A stretch of DNA of 64,000 nucleotides from Catonella massiliensis (GTDB lineage: Bacteria; Bacillota; Clostridia; Lachnospirales; Lachnospiraceae), in the NCBI RefSeq assembly GCF_016651435.1, contig NZ_JAEPRJ010000001.1:1054001-1118000 (forward strand). Direction: 5' to 3'. Position 1 is the first letter of the stretch. Each line of letters begins with the position of its first letter. The notes below the pieces were generated by a model that was given only the letters and a program-made list of their open reading frames with translations, searched no databases and was not told the DNA's origin. Made by a program: the position numbers and the translations under genes. Below are positions 2,940 through 11,069 of the stretch, one piece after another.

Positions 2940-2968
2940 TTGCTACCTGACCAAAATAGTGGTAAAAT
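2940..2968 (+). promoter_or_regulatory. Sigma-A-type promoter for the polymer export/c-di-AMP operon
   Basis: TTGCTA, a 17-bp spacer ending in TGG, then TAAAAT gives a -35 box and an extended -10 box. It lies about 60 bases upstream of the ABC ATPase gene. Confidence 0.6.
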
Positions 2969-3028: not shown

Positions 3029-3772
3029 ATGGGCAAATACGCAATTGAAGTAGAAAATGTCGGAATGAAGTTTAATATGAGCTCCGAAAAGGTGGATGAT
3101 CTTAAGGACTATGTGATTAAGCTGCTTAAAAGGCAGCTAAACTACAAGGAGTTCTGGGCACTCAAGGATATTTCTTTTAATATTGAAAAGGGTGACAGGG
3201 TTGGCCTTGTAGGACTAAATGGTGCCGGGAAAAGTACTCTTCTTAAGGTTATCTCAGGAGTACTTAAGCCGACAGAGGGAAAAGTTAAGATATCGGGTAA
3301 TATTGCACCTCTTTTGGAGCTGGGTGCCGGGTTTAATAAACAGTATACGGGCACAGAGAATATATTTCTTTATGGTGCTATGCTTGGACATTCTAAGGCT
3401 TTTTTAACTGAAAAGTATAATGAGATTGTTAAGTTTTCAGAGCTTGGAGAATTCATTGATGTACCCGTTAAGAACTATTCCTCAGGTATGAAATCAAGGC
3501 TTGGATTTGCAATAGCAACTATTGTAGAGCCTGATATTCTGGTACTTGATGAGGTTCTCTCTGTTGGTGATGCCAAGTTTAGAAAAAAGAGTACCAATAA
3601 AATCAAGTCGATGATTGAAAACAATGTTACGGTACTTTTTGTATCGCATTCTATAGATCAGGTATTAGATCTTTGCAACAAGGCTATACTCCTTGATAAG
3701 GGGCACCTTGTGGCATATGGAAGCGCACAGGAGATAGCTGATCTTTATCAGCAAAGACTCGAAGATAAATAA
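3029..3772 (+). CDS. Polysaccharide/teichoic acid export ABC transporter, ATP-binding protein
   Basis: A 247-residue ABC ATPase of the TagH/RfbE/Wzt type. Walker A is GLNGAGKST (residues 62-70), the signature is SSGMKSRLGFA (from about 151) and Walker B is PDILVLDEVLSVGD (from about 168). These ATPases power flipping of undecaprenyl-linked polymers with an ABC-2 permease; the matching permease is 3.7 kb downstream at 7456. There is no C-terminal carbohydrate-binding extension of the Wzt kind, so it resembles the short TagH/RfbB forms. It opens a long + strand run through the c-di-AMP synthase genes, with small gaps or overlaps throughout. Confidence 0.88.
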   Translation: MGKYAIEVENVGMKFNMSSEKVDDLKDYVIKLLKRQLNYKEFWALKDISFNIEKGDRVGLVGLNGAGKSTLLKVISGVLKPTEGKVKISGNIAPLLELGAGFNKQYTGTENIFLYGAMLGHSKAFLTEKYNEIVKFSELGEFIDVPVKNYSSGMKSRLGFAIATIVEPDILVLDEVLSVGDAKFRKKSTNKIKSMIENNVTVLFVSHSIDQVLDLCNKAILLDKGHLVAYGSAQEIADLYQQRLEDK

Positions 3773-3787
3773 AAAATGAGGTAATAT

Positions 3788-4201
3788 ATGATAGTTAAAA
3801 ATAAGGTGGGTCTTATGTCTAAGCTTGCTATGTTTGAAAAGTCTTCCGAGGGGAAGATGGCACTTAGAGATATCAGCCTTTTTAGATATGACCATATCAG
3901 ATGGGATTTGCTAAAAACCGGTGCAAGTGTAACTGTAGGTTATGCTTTGATACTGGCTCTAATAATAATGTATAATCTTGAATATCTCATTAAGAATGCG
4001 ACTTCACTTGATTATAAGGACATTGGAGTTAAGACGCTGGGGATATATCTGGTGGTTATGGTGGTTTATCTGGTATTTACTTTTCTATATTCTGCCTATA
4101 CATACAGTAAAAACAGAAGAAAGTTTGTAAAGTATCGTAAACTATTGTCGCAGATGGAGAGGATTTACGATGAAGAGGAGACAGAGGAGGAGAGTAAATG
4201 A
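3788..4201 (+). CDS. Small two-helix membrane protein of unknown function
   Basis: A 137-residue protein I do not recognise. It has a hydrophilic N-terminal stretch of about 40 residues, two hydrophobic segments (roughly residues 44-65 and 78-103), and a charged tail ending EEETEEESK. Its stop overlaps the ATG of the next membrane protein (ATGA), so the two are translationally coupled and probably act together. The position between an export ATPase and c-di-AMP synthase suggests an envelope role, but that is inferred from context only. Confidence 0.75.
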   Translation: MIVKNKVGLMSKLAMFEKSSEGKMALRDISLFRYDHIRWDLLKTGASVTVGYALILALIIMYNLEYLIKNATSLDYKDIGVKTLGIYLVVMVVYLVFTFLYSAYTYSKNRRKFVKYRKLLSQMERIYDEEETEEESK

Positions 4202-5142
4202 TACAGCTTCTGCTAATTAGAGACAGCATTAAAAGCGTGGTAAAGAAGTACAATGCAGCAATTGTTCCTATTTTCCGTTTCGTTGCCGCCTTTATTACAT
4301 TTTTATTAATTAACTATAATCTAGGCTACAACGAAAAATTCTCGGGAATATCTGTAGTTGTTATGTTTTCAGCTATATCGGCATTTTTACCAATGGCGGT
4401 AACAGTGTTTTTGGCAGGACTTTTAATGACTATACACATATACTCAGCCTCAATGTTCCTTGCACTTATATTTGTGCTGATTATAGCTATCCTTTATTTT
4501 ATGCTGGTTCGTTTTGCACCTGAATACAGTGGGCTTATTATTGCAGTCCCGGTACTTTCATTTTTCCATATGGAAGCCCTTACACCTATGGCAGTTGGGC
4601 TTACGGGCAATCCTATAGCTATATTTGCAATGGTTCCGGGAGTCTTTATCTCTACGTTATTTAATGTGATAAAAGAAGCTGTAAAAATGTCTGCCGGAAA
4701 TACCCAGATAGAGGATAACCTTCAGATTTACATCTATGTGATGAAATCTCTAATTGAGAATAAACTTATGATACTTACCATAGTTTCATCTATCTGCGTA
4801 TACTTTGCAGCGTATGTATGCAGGAGGCTCGCTATATCACATGCATATATACTTGGAATACTGGCAGGGATGATAGTCAATCTTATGGTAATGATAATAG
4901 GAGGCCTCATATTTGATGTTAAAACAGATGTCCTTTGGGTATTCTTAGGTACCATGCTTTCGGGCGTATTTGCGTTTGTTGTGCAGTTCTTTAAGTATCT
5001 TCTTGACTACACCTCTGTCGAGCATTTACAGTTTGACGATGATGATTATTTTTATTATGTTACTGCAGTGCCTAAGCTATCGGTCACATCACCTAATTTG
5101 AATATTCTTAAGATAAACGGTAACGAAACAGATAAGGAATGA
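4198..5142 (+). CDS. Polytopic membrane protein of unknown function next to cdaA
   Basis: A 314-residue integral membrane protein with about eight predicted hydrophobic helices and an acidic cytosol-like C-terminal stretch (FDDDDYFYYV) after the last one. No transporter or enzyme motif is recognisable. It is coupled by a 4-base overlap to the small membrane protein upstream, and cdaA begins 7 bases after its stop. A partner in envelope polymer assembly or an accessory membrane factor for CdaA are both possible; the sequence does not decide. Confidence 0.78.
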   Translation: MIQLLLIRDSIKSVVKKYNAAIVPIFRFVAAFITFLLINYNLGYNEKFSGISVVVMFSAISAFLPMAVTVFLAGLLMTIHIYSASMFLALIFVLIIAILYFMLVRFAPEYSGLIIAVPVLSFFHMEALTPMAVGLTGNPIAIFAMVPGVFISTLFNVIKEAVKMSAGNTQIEDNLQIYIYVMKSLIENKLMILTIVSSICVYFAAYVCRRLAISHAYILGILAGMIVNLMVMIIGGLIFDVKTDVLWVFLGTMLSGVFAFVVQFFKYLLDYTSVEHLQFDDDDYFYYVTAVPKLSVTSPNLNILKINGNETDKE

Positions 5143-5149
5143 GTGTTAA

Positions 5150-6043
5150 ATGGAAACGATTGTAGAAACGATAAGCGATTATTTTACGTGGCTTACCTTA
5201 CCGGCATTTAAGTTTACAGATGTACTAGAAATACTTATTTTAGCTTTTTTGATTTACAATATCATCAAATGGATAAAGTATACCAGAGCCTGGACCTTGT
5301 TTAAGGGACTCCTGGTATTACTTGCCTTTTCTGTGTTTTCCGCTATCATGCAGTTTGATGTAATACTCTGGATTATACGGAATACTATCAGTGTCGGTAT
5401 TATTGCATTTGTAATACTATTTCAGCCGGAACTAAGAAGAGCACTTGAAGAACTGGGCAAAAGAAACATATTTCCAAAGTTTATAAGTCTGACAGACTCC
5501 GATGAAAATGACAGATTTTCTGATAAGACGATAGAAGAGTTAGTGAAGGCTTCATTTGAACTTGCAAGAAATAAAACCGGTGCTCTCATAGTTATAGAAA
5601 AGGATTTGAGCCTTACCGAGTATGAAAAAAGCGGAATACCTATAGATGCAGTTGTAAGCAGCCAGTTGCTTATCAATATATTTGAGCATAACACACCTCT
5701 TCATGATGGAGCAGTTATCATGAGGGGGGATAGGATTGTATCTGCTACCTGTTACCTGCCACTATCTCCTAATCTTTCTCTTAGCAAAGAGCTTGGCACA
5801 AGACATAGGGCCGCTGTTGGAGTAAGTGAGGTGACAGATAGCTTAACTATCATAGTCTCTGAAGAGACCGGAAAGGTTTCTATAGCTCAAGATGGTAGAA
5901 TATTAAGAAATGTTGATGGTGGAAGGCTCAAGTCTGAGCTTGTAAAACTTCAGAAGCTTGATGCTTTTGCACAGGAAACTAAGCTTAAATGGCAGAAGGT
6001 TAAAAAACATCTGTTTCGCAATAAGCAGGATGGAGAATTGTGA
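5150..6043 (+). CDS. cdaA: Diadenylate cyclase CdaA (c-di-AMP synthase)
   Basis: A 297-residue protein with three N-terminal membrane helices (about 24-44, 51-68, 73-92) and a cytosolic DisA_N (DAC) domain. The catalytic motifs DGA (186-188) and RHR (218-220) are both intact. CdaA condenses two ATP to c-di-AMP, a messenger controlling potassium and osmolyte transport and cell-wall integrity in Firmicutes. The next gene encodes its known partner CdaR. Unlike the usual cdaA-cdaR-glmM arrangement there is no glmM here; the genes sit inside a polymer-export operon instead. Confidence 0.96.
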   Translation: METIVETISDYFTWLTLPAFKFTDVLEILILAFLIYNIIKWIKYTRAWTLFKGLLVLLAFSVFSAIMQFDVILWIIRNTISVGIIAFVILFQPELRRALEELGKRNIFPKFISLTDSDENDRFSDKTIEELVKASFELARNKTGALIVIEKDLSLTEYEKSGIPIDAVVSSQLLINIFEHNTPLHDGAVIMRGDRIVSATCYLPLSPNLSLSKELGTRHRAAVGVSEVTDSLTIIVSEETGKVSIAQDGRILRNVDGGRLKSELVKLQKLDAFAQETKLKWQKVKKHLFRNKQDGEL

Positions 6044-6045
6044 TT

Positions 6046-7434
6046 ATGAAGAAGTTGTTTACAGAAAATATAGGACTTAAGCTTGGCTCTATTGCCATAG
6101 CCATTATCCTATGGGTTTTGGTCGTATACACATATGATCCCGCTGCAACTACGACATTTACCATAGGAGTAGACATTATTAACGGGGACTCCATAGCATC
6201 TTTGGGAAAGGTATATGAAGTCGTTGAAGGTGACACGATTACCATAAAGGTGAAAGCGAACGCAAGCCTTATAAAGAACCTTAAGGCATCTGATTTTAAG
6301 GCTACTGCCGATGTATCTAAGCTCTCACCTACAGACCATGCCAACATAGATGTCGTATGTACTAAGTCGGACAATGTTGAGATAACCATCATAGGCAGTG
6401 CAAAGCTACTTGAAGTTAAGCTTGAAGACCGTGTAACCAAGCAGTTTTCAGTTACGGTTGAAAAGTCAGGAAATGCGATGGAGGGCTACTTTGTAGGGGA
6501 TGCCGTCGCCAAGCCTAATCTCATAACAGTAAGCGGAGGTAAGAACTCTATAGAAAAAATTGCATCAGTTAAGGTGGTTGCTGACATAAATGGTGCTGGA
6601 AGTTCGTTTAATGTTAAGGGTGTTCCTAAGGCCTATGATTCTGACGGCAACGAAATAACTACAGGAAGCCTAACGTTTTCTGATAATCCTGTAAGTGTTG
6701 CAGTAAAGGTGTATAAGACTAAGAGGATTAGTGTGATTGTGGAAGCGAGCGGAGAACCATATAAGGGATATTCTGTTCAGGATATTGACTATGAGCCAAA
6801 GTCTGTATTGGTCGCAGGTGATAAGAATCTGCTCTCAAGGATTTCAAGTATTAGAGTGCCTCTTGATGTTGAAGGAAAGATAACGGATGTAGAGGAATCT
6901 ATTAGTCTTTCTGACTTTTTGGAAAGCGGCATATACCTTGTTGACAAGGATGTAACCATCAATGCTAAGTGCAATATAGTAAGGCTTGGAACTAAAGAAC
7001 TTGAAGTATTGCCAACAGATATTAGTCTTAACAATAAATCAGACAAATTTAATTATGAATTCGTTAATACAGAGAAGTTAGTTGTTACCTTGAGTGGCCT
7101 TTCTGATAAAATAAAAGATATTGGAGTTTCAGACATAGCTCCGTATATTGATTTATCCAATACAAAGGAAGCGGGTAATTACTCTTACATACTCAAGTTT
7201 AGAGACATTGACGGTGTAAAAGTGGAGACATCTAATGCTGTTACCATAAGGGTAACCGATATTAGTGGAGGAGCATCGGAAAATACAGGGGAAGATGCAA
7301 ATGATGAAGCCAGCGGTGCCGCCATTGAATCAGATGACAAAAAGAGTGAGACAAAAGAATCAAAAGAATCAAAGGGGTCAAAAGAAGGAGAGTCATCTTC
7401 TGTAACGAATGAAGAAGGAAAGAACCATGAATAA
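6046..7434 (+). CDS. cdaR: YbbR-domain protein CdaR, regulator of CdaA
   Basis: A 462-residue protein with one N-terminal membrane helix (IAIAIILWVLVVYTY) followed by several YbbR-type beta repeats and an acidic, Ser/Lys/Glu-rich low-complexity tail. CdaR proteins are anchored outside the membrane and modulate the cyclase. A GTG at 6040 would overlap cdaA by 4 bases, but the GGAGA site at 6032-6036 is correctly spaced for the ATG at 6046, so I use that start. The tail (ESKESKGSKEGES-like) probably spans or contacts the wall. Confidence 0.9.
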   Translation: MKKLFTENIGLKLGSIAIAIILWVLVVYTYDPAATTTFTIGVDIINGDSIASLGKVYEVVEGDTITIKVKANASLIKNLKASDFKATADVSKLSPTDHANIDVVCTKSDNVEITIIGSAKLLEVKLEDRVTKQFSVTVEKSGNAMEGYFVGDAVAKPNLITVSGGKNSIEKIASVKVVADINGAGSSFNVKGVPKAYDSDGNEITTGSLTFSDNPVSVAVKVYKTKRISVIVEASGEPYKGYSVQDIDYEPKSVLVAGDKNLLSRISSIRVPLDVEGKITDVEESISLSDFLESGIYLVDKDVTINAKCNIVRLGTKELEVLPTDISLNNKSDKFNYEFVNTEKLVVTLSGLSDKIKDIGVSDIAPYIDLSNTKEAGNYSYILKFRDIDGVKVETSNAVTIRVTDISGGASENTGEDANDEASGAAIESDDKKSETKESKESKGSKEGESSSVTNEEGKNHE

Positions 7435-7455
7435 GTTGTATATGGAGGAAAGCTT

Positions 7456-8232
7456 GTGCTTAGAGTAATAAAGAATTTTAAAAAGTTCAGATTTTTACTG
7501 CTTGAACTTGTGAAGAAGGATATCAAGCTAAAATACAGACGTTCTTATCTTGGTATATTGTGGACTCTGCTTGAGCCACTTTTAACCATGATAGTTTTAA
7601 CTGTCGTGTTTTCCGGGTTTTATGGCAAGAGTGACAGGTCATTCCCTATATATGTCCTTTCAGGAAGGCTTTTGTACAGCTTTTTCTCATCAGGTACAAA
7701 GGCGGCCTGCAAGTCAATCAGGAGTAATGCATCCATTATCAAGAAGGTGTATGTACCCAAATACATATATCCATTTGCTTCAATCATAGCCAACTATCTG
7801 ATATTTATGATATCGCTTACTGTACTGGTGGTTGTTTCACTGGTTTTAGGTGTATATCCTACAAAACATATATTTGCTGCAATCATACCTCTCATAACAC
7901 TTTTGTTTATGACAATAGGTGTGGGTATGGTGCTTGCTACCATGGCTGTATTTTTCAGGGACCTGGAGTATCTGTGGGATGTAATGCTAATGCTTATAAT
8001 GTATTCATCAGCTATCTTCTATAACCCTGCGAAGGTTATTAAGAATGGTTACGGCTGGATTATTACATATAACCCTGTATACGCCTGCATAGCCAACTTT
8101 AGAAATGCGATTTATGGCAGCAGCATCGACAGATGGAGCCTTTATTATTCGGTAGGAGTCGCAGCTATAAGTGTGGTTGTTGGTCTTTTTGTATTCTACA
8201 AAAAGCAGGATGAGTTTATCTTAAATATTTAA
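7456..8232 (+). CDS. Polysaccharide/teichoic acid export ABC-2 permease
   Basis: A 258-residue permease with about six membrane helices and the family signature KLKYRRSYLGILWTLLEPLL near the N-terminus, typical of TagG/Wzm/RfbA proteins. It is the expected partner of the ATPase encoded at 3029 and would move lipid-linked polymer across the membrane. The start is GTG, 5 bases after a GGAGGAA site at 7444-7450. A TagB/TagF-family transferase gene follows 20 bases later. Confidence 0.9.
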   Translation: MLRVIKNFKKFRFLLLELVKKDIKLKYRRSYLGILWTLLEPLLTMIVLTVVFSGFYGKSDRSFPIYVLSGRLLYSFFSSGTKAACKSIRSNASIIKKVYVPKYIYPFASIIANYLIFMISLTVLVVVSLVLGVYPTKHIFAAIIPLITLLFMTIGVGMVLATMAVFFRDLEYLWDVMLMLIMYSSAIFYNPAKVIKNGYGWIITYNPVYACIANFRNAIYGSSIDRWSLYYSVGVAAISVVVGLFVFYKKQDEFILNI

Positions 8233-8252
8233 CAAAACTAAAGAAGTGGCAA

Positions 8253-9404
8253 ATGATGAAAATAAAAGAATTAAGCTATGCCTTGTTTGCGTTTAACTAC
8301 AAGTTTGGTTCGATTCTTCCCATCAAAAAGAATTTTGTGTTCTCCATAATGACACATGATGAATCTCCAAGCGGAAATATCAGGACTCTTACCAAGTATC
8401 TAAGCAAGGTGGGTAAATATAGCTTTTACTACGTGGCTAAGGAAGAGAGGAGAGCTTATTTTCATCTCCTTTTTGTACTGCCGTTTGTAATGAGTAGAGC
8501 AGAGATTATCCTTATGGACAACGCATTTATGCCTATGTCCTTCTTTAAGGTGAGAAAGGAAACAAAGGTGCTTCAGCTCTGGCATGGAACAGGAAGCATC
8601 AAAAAGTTCGGACAGGACAGCAATACAGGGAGATTAAGGGAATTAGAAAGAAGACATAACGCAAACATTGACTGTCTCTTTGTTAATTCATCCGGGCTTG
8701 TACGTGAATATGCCGGAGCTTTTGGCGTACCGGAATCAAAAGTATACGCTACAGGGCTTCCAAGAACTGATTGGCTCCTGACACTTTTGTCTGATAAAAA
8801 CAGGGCTAAAAAAATCCGGGACATAAGAGAAAAGATAGAAAAATTTATGGTGGGCAGCTTGAAGGACAAAAAGATAATCCTATATGCGCCAACCTTTAGG
8901 GACAATGAAACGGATGCTCCAAAGCTCCATATGAATGTATCAAAGCTTGCAGAGACGCTTTCTTGCGATTATCTTATATTTCTTAAGCTTCATCCTTTTG
9001 TGAGCAGGGCATTTAAGGGGAGTGATTTACCCGCCAGGGTAATAAATATATCAGACTATAAGGACTTAAATGAACTTATGGTTGTCTCTGATGGGTTAAT
9101 AACAGATTATTCATCTATTATTTTTGACTATGTTGTACTTGATAAGCCGATGTATTTTTTTGCTGATGATATACTTGATTTTGAAACGAATGGGAGAGGT
9201 TTTTACCTTGACTATAGAAATGAGCTTCCAGGTATTTTGCCTTCTGATGAGACCGAACTTGGAAGGATAATTGTAAATGATATAGAGGGAAGCGAAAGCA
9301 ATGAGACCAGGCTTAGTAGAAGGTTGTTTCTTGATAAATACTATGATTGGTTAGATGGTAAGTCTGCGATGAGAGTGTATGAGGAGGCAATTAAAAAGAA
9401 GTAA
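8253..9404 (+). CDS. CDP-glycerol/CDP-polyol phosphotransferase family protein (TagB/TarF type)
   Basis: A 383-residue protein with only the catalytic domain of the CDP-glycerol:poly(glycerophosphate) glycerophosphotransferase family. Visible motifs are LWHGTGSIKKFG, ATGLPRTD, APTFRDN, KLHPFV and LITDYSSIIFDY. Such enzymes transfer glycerol-phosphate or ribitol-phosphate from the CDP donor to a lipid-linked acceptor at the inner face of the membrane. It is shorter than the two paralogues at 15555 and 19112 and lacks their N-terminal domain, so a priming (TagB/TarF-like) rather than polymerising role is plausible. ATG codons occur at 8253 and 8256. It ends the operon before a terminator. Confidence 0.85.
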   Translation: MMKIKELSYALFAFNYKFGSILPIKKNFVFSIMTHDESPSGNIRTLTKYLSKVGKYSFYYVAKEERRAYFHLLFVLPFVMSRAEIILMDNAFMPMSFFKVRKETKVLQLWHGTGSIKKFGQDSNTGRLRELERRHNANIDCLFVNSSGLVREYAGAFGVPESKVYATGLPRTDWLLTLLSDKNRAKKIRDIREKIEKFMVGSLKDKKIILYAPTFRDNETDAPKLHMNVSKLAETLSCDYLIFLKLHPFVSRAFKGSDLPARVINISDYKDLNELMVVSDGLITDYSSIIFDYVVLDKPMYFFADDILDFETNGRGFYLDYRNELPGILPSDETELGRIIVNDIEGSESNETRLSRRLFLDKYYDWLDGKSAMRVYEEAIKKK

Positions 9405-9453: not shown

Positions 9454-9496
9454 GAGGCTGCTACATAATATAAGTATTACGTGGCGGCCTCTTTTT
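9454..9496. terminator. Terminator between convergent genes
   Basis: An 11-bp stem (GAGGCTGCTAC / GTGGCGGCCTC, two G-U pairs) with a 16-base loop is followed by TTTTT on the + strand. On the - strand the same hairpin is followed by CTTT, so it may also serve the convergent sugar transferase gene. Confidence 0.8.
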
Positions 9497-9512: not shown

Positions 9513-10913
9513 TTAATAAGCGTTTTTATTGATAAAGCCCTTAAAGAAGGTTAAAAACAGTATCTTAAAATCAAGCCCAAGTGTCCAGTTCTCGATATAA
9601 TAAAGGTCACAGTCTATTCTTTTTCTTATGGAGGTATCTCCTCTGAAACCATTTACCTGGGCCCAGCCGGTTATGCCGGGACGTACCTGATGCTTAACAT
9701 TGTAGCGCGGAATCTCCTCTTGAAATTTCTCCACGAAGAAAGGGCGTTCAGGTCTTGGGCCGACAAGGCTCATGTCCCCCTTAAGCACATTAAAGACCTG
9801 GGGAAGCTCATCAATACTGGTTTTTCTGATGAAACTGCCTATTGAGGTTACCCTTGGATCATTTTTGGTAGTCCATGCCTTCTTTTCGGCTCCTGCGTCC
9901 TGTATCTTCATAGAGCGGAACTTGTACATGTTAAACTCTTTGTTGTGCAGGCCTACTCTTACCTGCTTGAAGATAAGAGGGCCGGGCGAGGTAAGCTTAA
10001 CAAGTATGCTTACAATAAGCATTGGTATACCAAATACAATAAGCATGCATACTGCCCCGAATATATCAACAACCCTCTTGATAAATTTGTTAAATGAGTT
10101 GCTAAGAGGCACATTCCTGATATTGATTACGGGAAGACCATCTATATCCTCAGTATGTGCAGTAGTAGGAATAACGTTGTTATAATCAGGTACAAACTGA
10201 GTGTGTACCCCGCTTTTTTCGCATACTGCCACGATATGTTCAAGCTTATGATAGTCACGAAGTCTAAGTGTAATGGCAATTTCATCAAGGGTGTGTGAAG
10301 CACATATTTCTTCCAGGTCCGAAATGGCTCCAAGAACTTTTATATTGCGGTACTTTGAGCCCTCCTGCTTGTCATCGTCCAGAATTCCAAATATAGTATA
10401 TCCCCATTGTGGATTGGAAATAAGCCTGTCAATATAGCTTTCTGCTGCAGAACTATAGCCAACAATCAACATATGTTTCTGGTTAAGGCCCTTTCTTCTC
10501 GCTGCATGAAGCAGTTTTCTTAAAAAGAAACGAAAGGTCCAGCCAAAGAATACATTTACACCATAAAATATAGTAATGAAAGAACGCGAAATATCACTTT
10601 CCTTAAGTACATACAGGAGTACAGGAAAAGTAAGAATGGCTATGGTATTAGCCTTAAAGAAGTTCCACATCTCAAACCTTAATCTAATCTGCCTCATAGG
10701 TGTGTAGACTCCTGAAAATGAGTATATTACAAGGTAGATAGGTATCAGGTAGATTAAAAATTTCATATAGTGGACTAAAGGCCACCACATGGTATGTTCA
10801 GGTGGAAATACTTCAAACTTTATAAGCCAGGCATATACAAAGGATATTATTATTATCAGTATGTCGCAGAGTAAATATACCCTGTTAAGTACTTTTTGAT
10901 TTTCTCTAATCAT
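9513..10913 (-). CDS. Undecaprenyl-phosphate sugar-1-phosphate transferase (initiating enzyme)
   Basis: A 466-residue polyprenyl-phosphate glycosyl-1-phosphate transferase of the WcaJ/CpsE type. It has about four N-terminal helices plus one before the catalytic domain, a central nucleotide-binding-like (CoA-binding) domain, and a C-terminal bacterial sugar transferase domain with KRVVDIFGA, YKFRSM, DELPQ and LVGPRPERP motifs. It would place the first sugar on the lipid carrier for a surface polymer. An upstream in-frame ATG exists at 10943, but the AGGAG site (minus strand, about 10921-10925) is spaced for the ATG at 10913. It is divergent from the HtrA gene and convergent with the export operon. 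Confidence 0.92.
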   Translation of the reverse strand: MIRENQKVLNRVYLLCDILIIIISFVYAWLIKFEVFPPEHTMWWPLVHYMKFLIYLIPIYLVIYSFSGVYTPMRQIRLRFEMWNFFKANTIAILTFPVLLYVLKESDISRSFITIFYGVNVFFGWTFRFFLRKLLHAARRKGLNQKHMLIVGYSSAAESYIDRLISNPQWGYTIFGILDDDKQEGSKYRNIKVLGAISDLEEICASHTLDEIAITLRLRDYHKLEHIVAVCEKSGVHTQFVPDYNNVIPTTAHTEDIDGLPVINIRNVPLSNSFNKFIKRVVDIFGAVCMLIVFGIPMLIVSILVKLTSPGPLIFKQVRVGLHNKEFNMYKFRSMKIQDAGAEKKAWTTKNDPRVTSIGSFIRKTSIDELPQVFNVLKGDMSLVGPRPERPFFVEKFQEEIPRYNVKHQVRPGITGWAQVNGFRGDTSIRKRIDCDLYYIENWTLGLDFKILFLTFFKGFINKNAY

Positions 10914-11069
10914 CGAAGTGCTCCTAAGATTTAATGATACCATTATAGTACATTTATGCAGATATTTCTACAAGGAAAGACACAAAGATTTCACAAGACT
11001 ATGGTTAAATTTATATATTTATGATATGCTTAGTATAGTATGATTCTTACTTTAGGAGGAGTGATAAAG
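10914..11069. promoter_or_regulatory. Divergent intergenic region between sugar transferase and HtrA genes
   Basis: This 156-base AT-rich gap must carry promoters for both directions. On the minus strand TATAAT reads at 10947-10942 with no convincing -35. On the plus strand TATAGT (11034-11039) is the best -10 candidate for the HtrA gene, again with a weak -35. No operator palindrome stands out. Confidence 0.4.

Follow-up and report, generated by a model that had tools for sequence, protein, structure and literature searches.

What are the genes for making cyclic diadenosine monophosphate (c-di-AMP) doing between the two halves of a surface-polymer exporter, and what are the two unnamed membrane proteins encoded beside them? 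The questions are raised by a locus of Catonella massiliensis, in a stretch of 64,000 nucleotides (contig NZ_JAEPRJ010000001.1, positions 1,054,001 to 1,118,000; hereafter the window). Its gene order, wzt-u1-u2-cdaA-cdaR-wzm-tagF, was confirmed and the coordinates of all seven genes were verified; the junctions are, in order, 15 bp, a 4 bp overlap, 7 bp, a 4 bp overlap, 21 bp and 20 bp. Here wzt and wzm encode the ATPase and permease of the exporter, cdaA the diadenylate cyclase, cdaR its regulator, and u1 and u2 the unnamed pair. The initial annotation had described this order and these tight junctions correctly, and proposed u1 and u2 as a link between c-di-AMP output and polymer export. Overall, its interpretation is partly supported, and the unnamed pair is the stronger finding: u1 and u2 belong to the c-di-AMP genes.

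The gene block around cdaA

The first answer comes from the family. One genome was taken for each of 150 genera of Lachnospiraceae, and u2 is present in 144 of them; 140 loci were read. Of the other four genomes, one is that of the window, two have matches in fragments, and in one a contig end truncates the match. In all 140, u2 stands directly before cdaA. The gene u1 directly precedes u2 in 139, the exception (L219) being cut at a contig edge, and cdaR directly follows cdaA in 138, the exceptions being a contig end (L209) and a broken cdaA frame (L272). The gaps within the block are operon-like, with medians of -1, 29 and -23 bp when gene starts are set at the first start codon, and no ATPase or energising gene lies within it. 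A second survey, which overlaps the first, gave the same picture: among the best 80 of 585 confirmed loci (the named loci), u1, u2 and cdaA are present in 80 and cdaR in 79, the last one (L067) ending with its contig; a few other genes are also cut by contig ends.

The four genes stay together while their flanks vary. The commonest upstream neighbours are comFC-like (68/138 family loci) and recD2-like (62/138) genes; these names, like mreB, GT2 and gmd, were assigned by eye from the sequences. As the initial annotation held, cdaA-cdaR classically travel with glmM (PMC8573169, in excerpt), and glmM does follow cdaR in 36 of the 140 family loci and in 38 of the best 80 of 585 named loci. In Lachnospiraceae, u1-u2 are tied to cdaA more closely than glmM is. 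The neighbourhoods show u1-u2-cdaA-cdaR to be an order-level four-gene operon for making c-di-AMP.

What of the genomes that lack u2? There are six in the family. In two of them a comFC-like gene directly precedes cdaA, so that u1-u2 are cleanly absent, and the four others also lack a match to the cyclase (DAC) domain, at completeness values of 67, 89, 99 and 68%. G095, which is 99% complete and has neither a DAC nor a u2 match, is possibly a Lachnospiraceae genome without c-di-AMP synthesis.

How far does the pair reach beyond the family? Within the order, u2 was found in 179 of 246 genomes. Of 20 loci picked from its other families, 19 have u1 before u2 and 17 have cdaA within 440 bp after u2. 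A DAC match was found in each of 20 genomes checked among the 67 u2-negative ones; one of these genomes has a diverged u2, in two the locus is truncated where cdaA begins, and the others showed neither u1 nor u2 in roughly 1 kb upstream of cdaA. A sample of the class gave a u2 match in 11 of 291 genomes, ten of them Lachnospiraceae and one, outside the order, weak and partial (E 1e-4). In a sample of the phylum there were matches in 5 of 398, all Lachnospiraceae, the window's genome included. No convincing u2 was thus found outside the order in these two samples. Given this distribution, and the u2-negative genomes with a DAC match, u1-u2 are a feature of the order, gained or lost within it, and are not essential to CdaA generally.

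The cyclase itself is of the CdaA type. It matches TIGR00159 at 254 bits, over the cut-off, and CdaA_N at 46.7 bits; it has a DAC domain with an N-terminal transmembrane (TM) domain, and cdaR lies immediately downstream. The DGA and RHR residues of this type are present, as DGA (residue 186) and GTRHRA (residue 216). The gene is the sole DAC match found in a genome that is 97% complete. Control of the locus by a c-di-AMP riboswitch was considered and rejected: despite the synthase gene, no RF00379 match was found genome-wide, and the Rfam scan of the window gave nothing at the gathering score.

The exporter and its split

If the block is so constant, how general is its association with the exporter? 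The permease and ATPase genes here are of the ABC-2 and TagH/Wzt-like types; the best NCBIfam relatives of wzt are TagH/Wzt export ATPases, below their (equivalog) cut-offs, and no second match to wzm was found in the genome. A TagF-like neighbour suggests a teichoic-type polymer as the predicted export substrate.

Of the 140 family loci, 12 have a wzm-wzt pair near the block (scores are low in three, L201, L235 and L251); of the named loci, 13 of the best 80 of 585 do. The pair always lies downstream of cdaR, and the two genes stand together in all 12 family loci, which agrees with the earlier view that such ATPase and permease genes are usually adjacent. Upstream of the block, neither gene was found at any family locus (140, with up to about 5 kb covered) or at any named locus (80, with up to 10 kb). 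In neither set do glmM and the exporter ever both occur downstream of cdaR. In the other 128 family loci u1-u2 are present and no wzm-wzt pair was seen over 6.5-8 kb of downstream sequence; at 18 of the 140 this sequence is shorter than 6.5 kb. The idea that u1 and u2 are accessories of the exporter was rejected, as the pair accompanies cdaA even at loci with no exporter seen in the vicinity.

Among the loci read, the split order that places wzt before u1 is confined to C. massiliensis and C. morbi (its genome taken as that of ATCC 51271), 2 of 5 genus members. It is not unique to one strain, and it is not family-wide either. Three of the four other genus members have wzm and wzt together downstream. 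In a tree, the wzt of the window groups with these genus wzt genes (support 96/87), so that a single gene, wzt, was probably relocated ahead of the block; the wzm tree agrees, at lower support (93/93). Linkage of the block to an exporter recurs without being general, and the split order is a recent one. The mixing of exporter genes into the block looks like a later local rearrangement.

The region downstream of cdaR is also often rich in surface-polysaccharide genes. Of 49 named loci with sufficient flanking sequence, 29 have surface-polymer genes in the 7 kb downstream of cdaR and 1 has them upstream of u1. The markers were chosen among genes next to the block, and this selection bias favours matches; a small control of arbitrary stretches gave a match in 1 of 10.

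In the window, all seven genes are likely to form a single predicted transcription unit, as the initial annotation supposed. The prediction rests on the tight junctions, on a promoter-like site kept in C. morbi and on a strong terminator-like hairpin after tagF (Table 1). The promoter-like site sits in the 90-bp gap between sdaAA and wzt; such patterns are frequent by chance, with 59 found against 39 expected in 14 kb. None of 200 shuffled sequences was as stable as the hairpin, which lies between the convergent tagF and wcaJ genes. A pattern scan did not list this hairpin. The wcaJ gene (9513-10943, minus strand) encodes a WcaJ-type undecaprenyl-phosphate glucose phosphotransferase (TIGR03023, over the cut-off) and is convergent at the same position in C. 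morbi.

Table 1. Features of the seven-gene unit; positions are those of the window
Feature	Position	Strand	Description	Basis
promoter-like site	2940..2968	+	putative; TTGCTA-17-TAAAAT, TG before second hexamer	9 of 12 pattern match
wzt	3029..3772	+	TagH/Wzt-type polymer-exporter ATPase, probably relocated to block front	ABC_tran; tree
u1	3788..4201	+	137-aa two-helix membrane hairpin protein, unnamed family	AlphaFold; family loci
u2	4198..5142	+	314-aa polytopic membrane protein, unnamed family; C-terminal motif QFDDDDYFYYVTAVPK	AlphaFold; family loci
cdaA	5150..6043	+	membrane diadenylate cyclase	TIGR00159; DGA, GTRHRA motifs
cdaR	6040..7434	+	YbbR-domain CdaA regulator; alternative start possible (ATG at 6046)	4 YbbR stretches
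wzm	7456..8232	+	ABC-2 exporter permease	profile matches; tree
tagF-like	8253..9404	+	CDP-glycerol glycerophosphotransferase	PF04464, 249 bits
terminator-like hairpin	9454..9496	+	hairpin and T run, predicted to close the unit	-22.5 kcal/mol, z -6.46

Possible roles of u1 and u2

Another question is what the two proteins are. Known families were rejected as their identity. Neither protein of the window matches a Pfam or NCBIfam family over cut-off, and no common Pfam family runs through either alignment: at E <= 1, no family matches more than 2 of the 68 aligned u2 members (best E 0.00071) or more than 10 of the 56 u1 members (best E for any listed family 0.00019). Against the sequences of the PDB, u2 gave no match at E <= 10, and a Foldseek search of its AlphaFold model against the PDB gave none at E <= 0.001. 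No earlier description of u1 or u2 was found in open-licence PMC papers, preprints being outside this scope.

The models nevertheless offer some guidance. That of u1 (pLDDT 88.1) has helices at residues 33-62 and 76-136. That of u2 is confident (pLDDT 81.0, pTM 0.75), and its second half is structurally most like ThiT, a vitamin-binding S-component of ECF transporters; the resemblance is weak. The most conserved part of u2 is the tail beyond the last membrane helix, with a near-invariant cytosolic motif, QF-D--Y-YYV-A-PK, present in 136 of the 140 family proteins. With hhalign, no convincing distant relationship emerged between u2 and S-components, CdaA, CdaR, Wzm or u1: against 29 frames chosen by their position at matches to PF12822 the probability was 3.9% over 25 columns, and the best result, with u1, covered 11 columns at 19%. 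In a coupling analysis of 222 loci, inter-protein scores were inseparable from noise.

On balance, u1 and u2 are probably subunits of the CdaA-CdaR complex that lie in the membrane and adjust its activity; their co-transcription with exporter genes would be of secondary importance. The co-localisation, the operon-like spacing, the constancy of the block between changing flanks and the conserved tail are observed, whereas physical contact, the sensing of a signal and the direction of regulation are what we infer here. Within the membrane, the polytopic u2 would act as a sensor or a scaffold, its second half possibly having an S-component-like fold, and its tail would contact the cyclase domain of CdaA or the TM linker. 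The long cytosolic helix of u1 would pair with the u2 tail and with CdaA. Alongside CdaR and GlmM, the pair would adjust the activity of the cyclase to a cue from the envelope or from nutrients. In C. massiliensis and C. morbi, where the exporter flanks the block, all seven genes would probably be co-transcribed; this would match the expression of export to c-di-AMP synthesis, and protein contact would not be required. A more specific version, in which u2 (with u1) is a membrane receptor of S-component-like fold that feeds a ligand or envelope signal into CdaA through the cytosolic tail, is tentative, and the chances are rather against it.

The alternatives overlap with the subunit reading, and their likelihoods do not sum to one. 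Could the pair instead be assembly or localisation factors, a scaffold of the MreD kind that places CdaA-CdaR at the cell-wall synthesis machinery? MreD has the S-component fold, as do ECF S-components and 5TMR sensor receptors (PMC11109136, in excerpt), 34 of 138 family loci have an mreB-like gene at position -4, and GlmM ties CdaA to cell-wall precursor synthesis (PMC8573169, in excerpt). However, the fold match of u2 is weak and its failure to match Pfam extends to MreD, and no Pfam family is common to more than 2 of its 68 members; we regard such a role as unlikely.

Or do u1-u2 form a transporter, whose substrate would be c-di-AMP or some osmolyte or nutrient under its control, and which is co-expressed with CdaA without regulating the cyclase? 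The polytopic form of u2 and its likeness to ThiT would fit, and c-di-AMP is described as controlling potassium and osmolyte transporters. Yet the block carries nothing to energise transport, and the conservation of u2 peaks in its tail. Moreover, the AxxxA motif by which helix 1 of S-components docks to EcfT (PMC11109136, in excerpt) occurs in only 2 of 68 u2 sequences (residues 104-126). We give this reading little chance.

That u1 and u2 physically link CdaA to the exporter, with c-di-AMP output and export coupled at the protein level, is improbable: the single predicted unit, the pairs near the block in 12 of 140 genera, the downstream polymer genes and the ABC transporter components in pull-downs of Streptococcus mutans DacA (PMC13289029, in excerpt) speak for it, but the 128 loci with u1-u2 and no pair seen nearby, a split confined to two genus members among all loci read and the biased choice of polymer markers weigh more heavily.

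Comparison with known systems

The regulation of CdaA is described as poorly understood (PMC8573169, PMC13289029, both in excerpt), and no open-licence PMC paper was found on CdaA or c-di-AMP cyclases in Lachnospiraceae. The partners known previously are CdaR, GlmM and, recently, SMU_723 of S. mutans. CdaR and GlmM are encoded with CdaA, form complexes with it and regulate it in Bacilli (PMC8573169, in excerpt). SMU_723, a membrane protein resembling a transporter, is a binding partner of DacA, and c-di-AMP falls when their contact is disrupted (PMC13289029, in excerpt). Together with the several ABC transporter components in the DacA pull-downs, it supports membrane partners of the cyclase and leaves some room for a transporter link. 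By analogy with these precedents, and given their tight tie to cdaA, u1 and u2 would be good candidates for CdaA subunits. As they are encoded with CdaA in nearly every Lachnospiraceae genus sampled, they provide a short list of candidate CdaA regulators in gut commensals.

How does the locus compare with what has been described? With the cdaA-cdaR-glmM operon of Bacillus subtilis, Listeria monocytogenes and Staphylococcus aureus (PMC8573169, in excerpt) it shares the membrane CdaA and the overlapping cdaR; the family loci differ by adding two membrane genes, and in this genome glmM lies outside the operon, at position 1436223 of the contig, some 0.37 Mb away. With the TagGH and Wzm-Wzt exporters it shares an ABC-2 permease and a TagH-like ATPase with a TagF-like gene adjoining, whereas here the four-gene block separates the ATPase and permease genes. 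Finally, like SMU_723 with DacA, u1 and u2 are membrane proteins proposed as direct modulators of a cyclase; SMU_723 is described as a putative calcium transporter (PMC13289029, in excerpt), and the likeness to u1 and u2 drawn here is one of proposed role.
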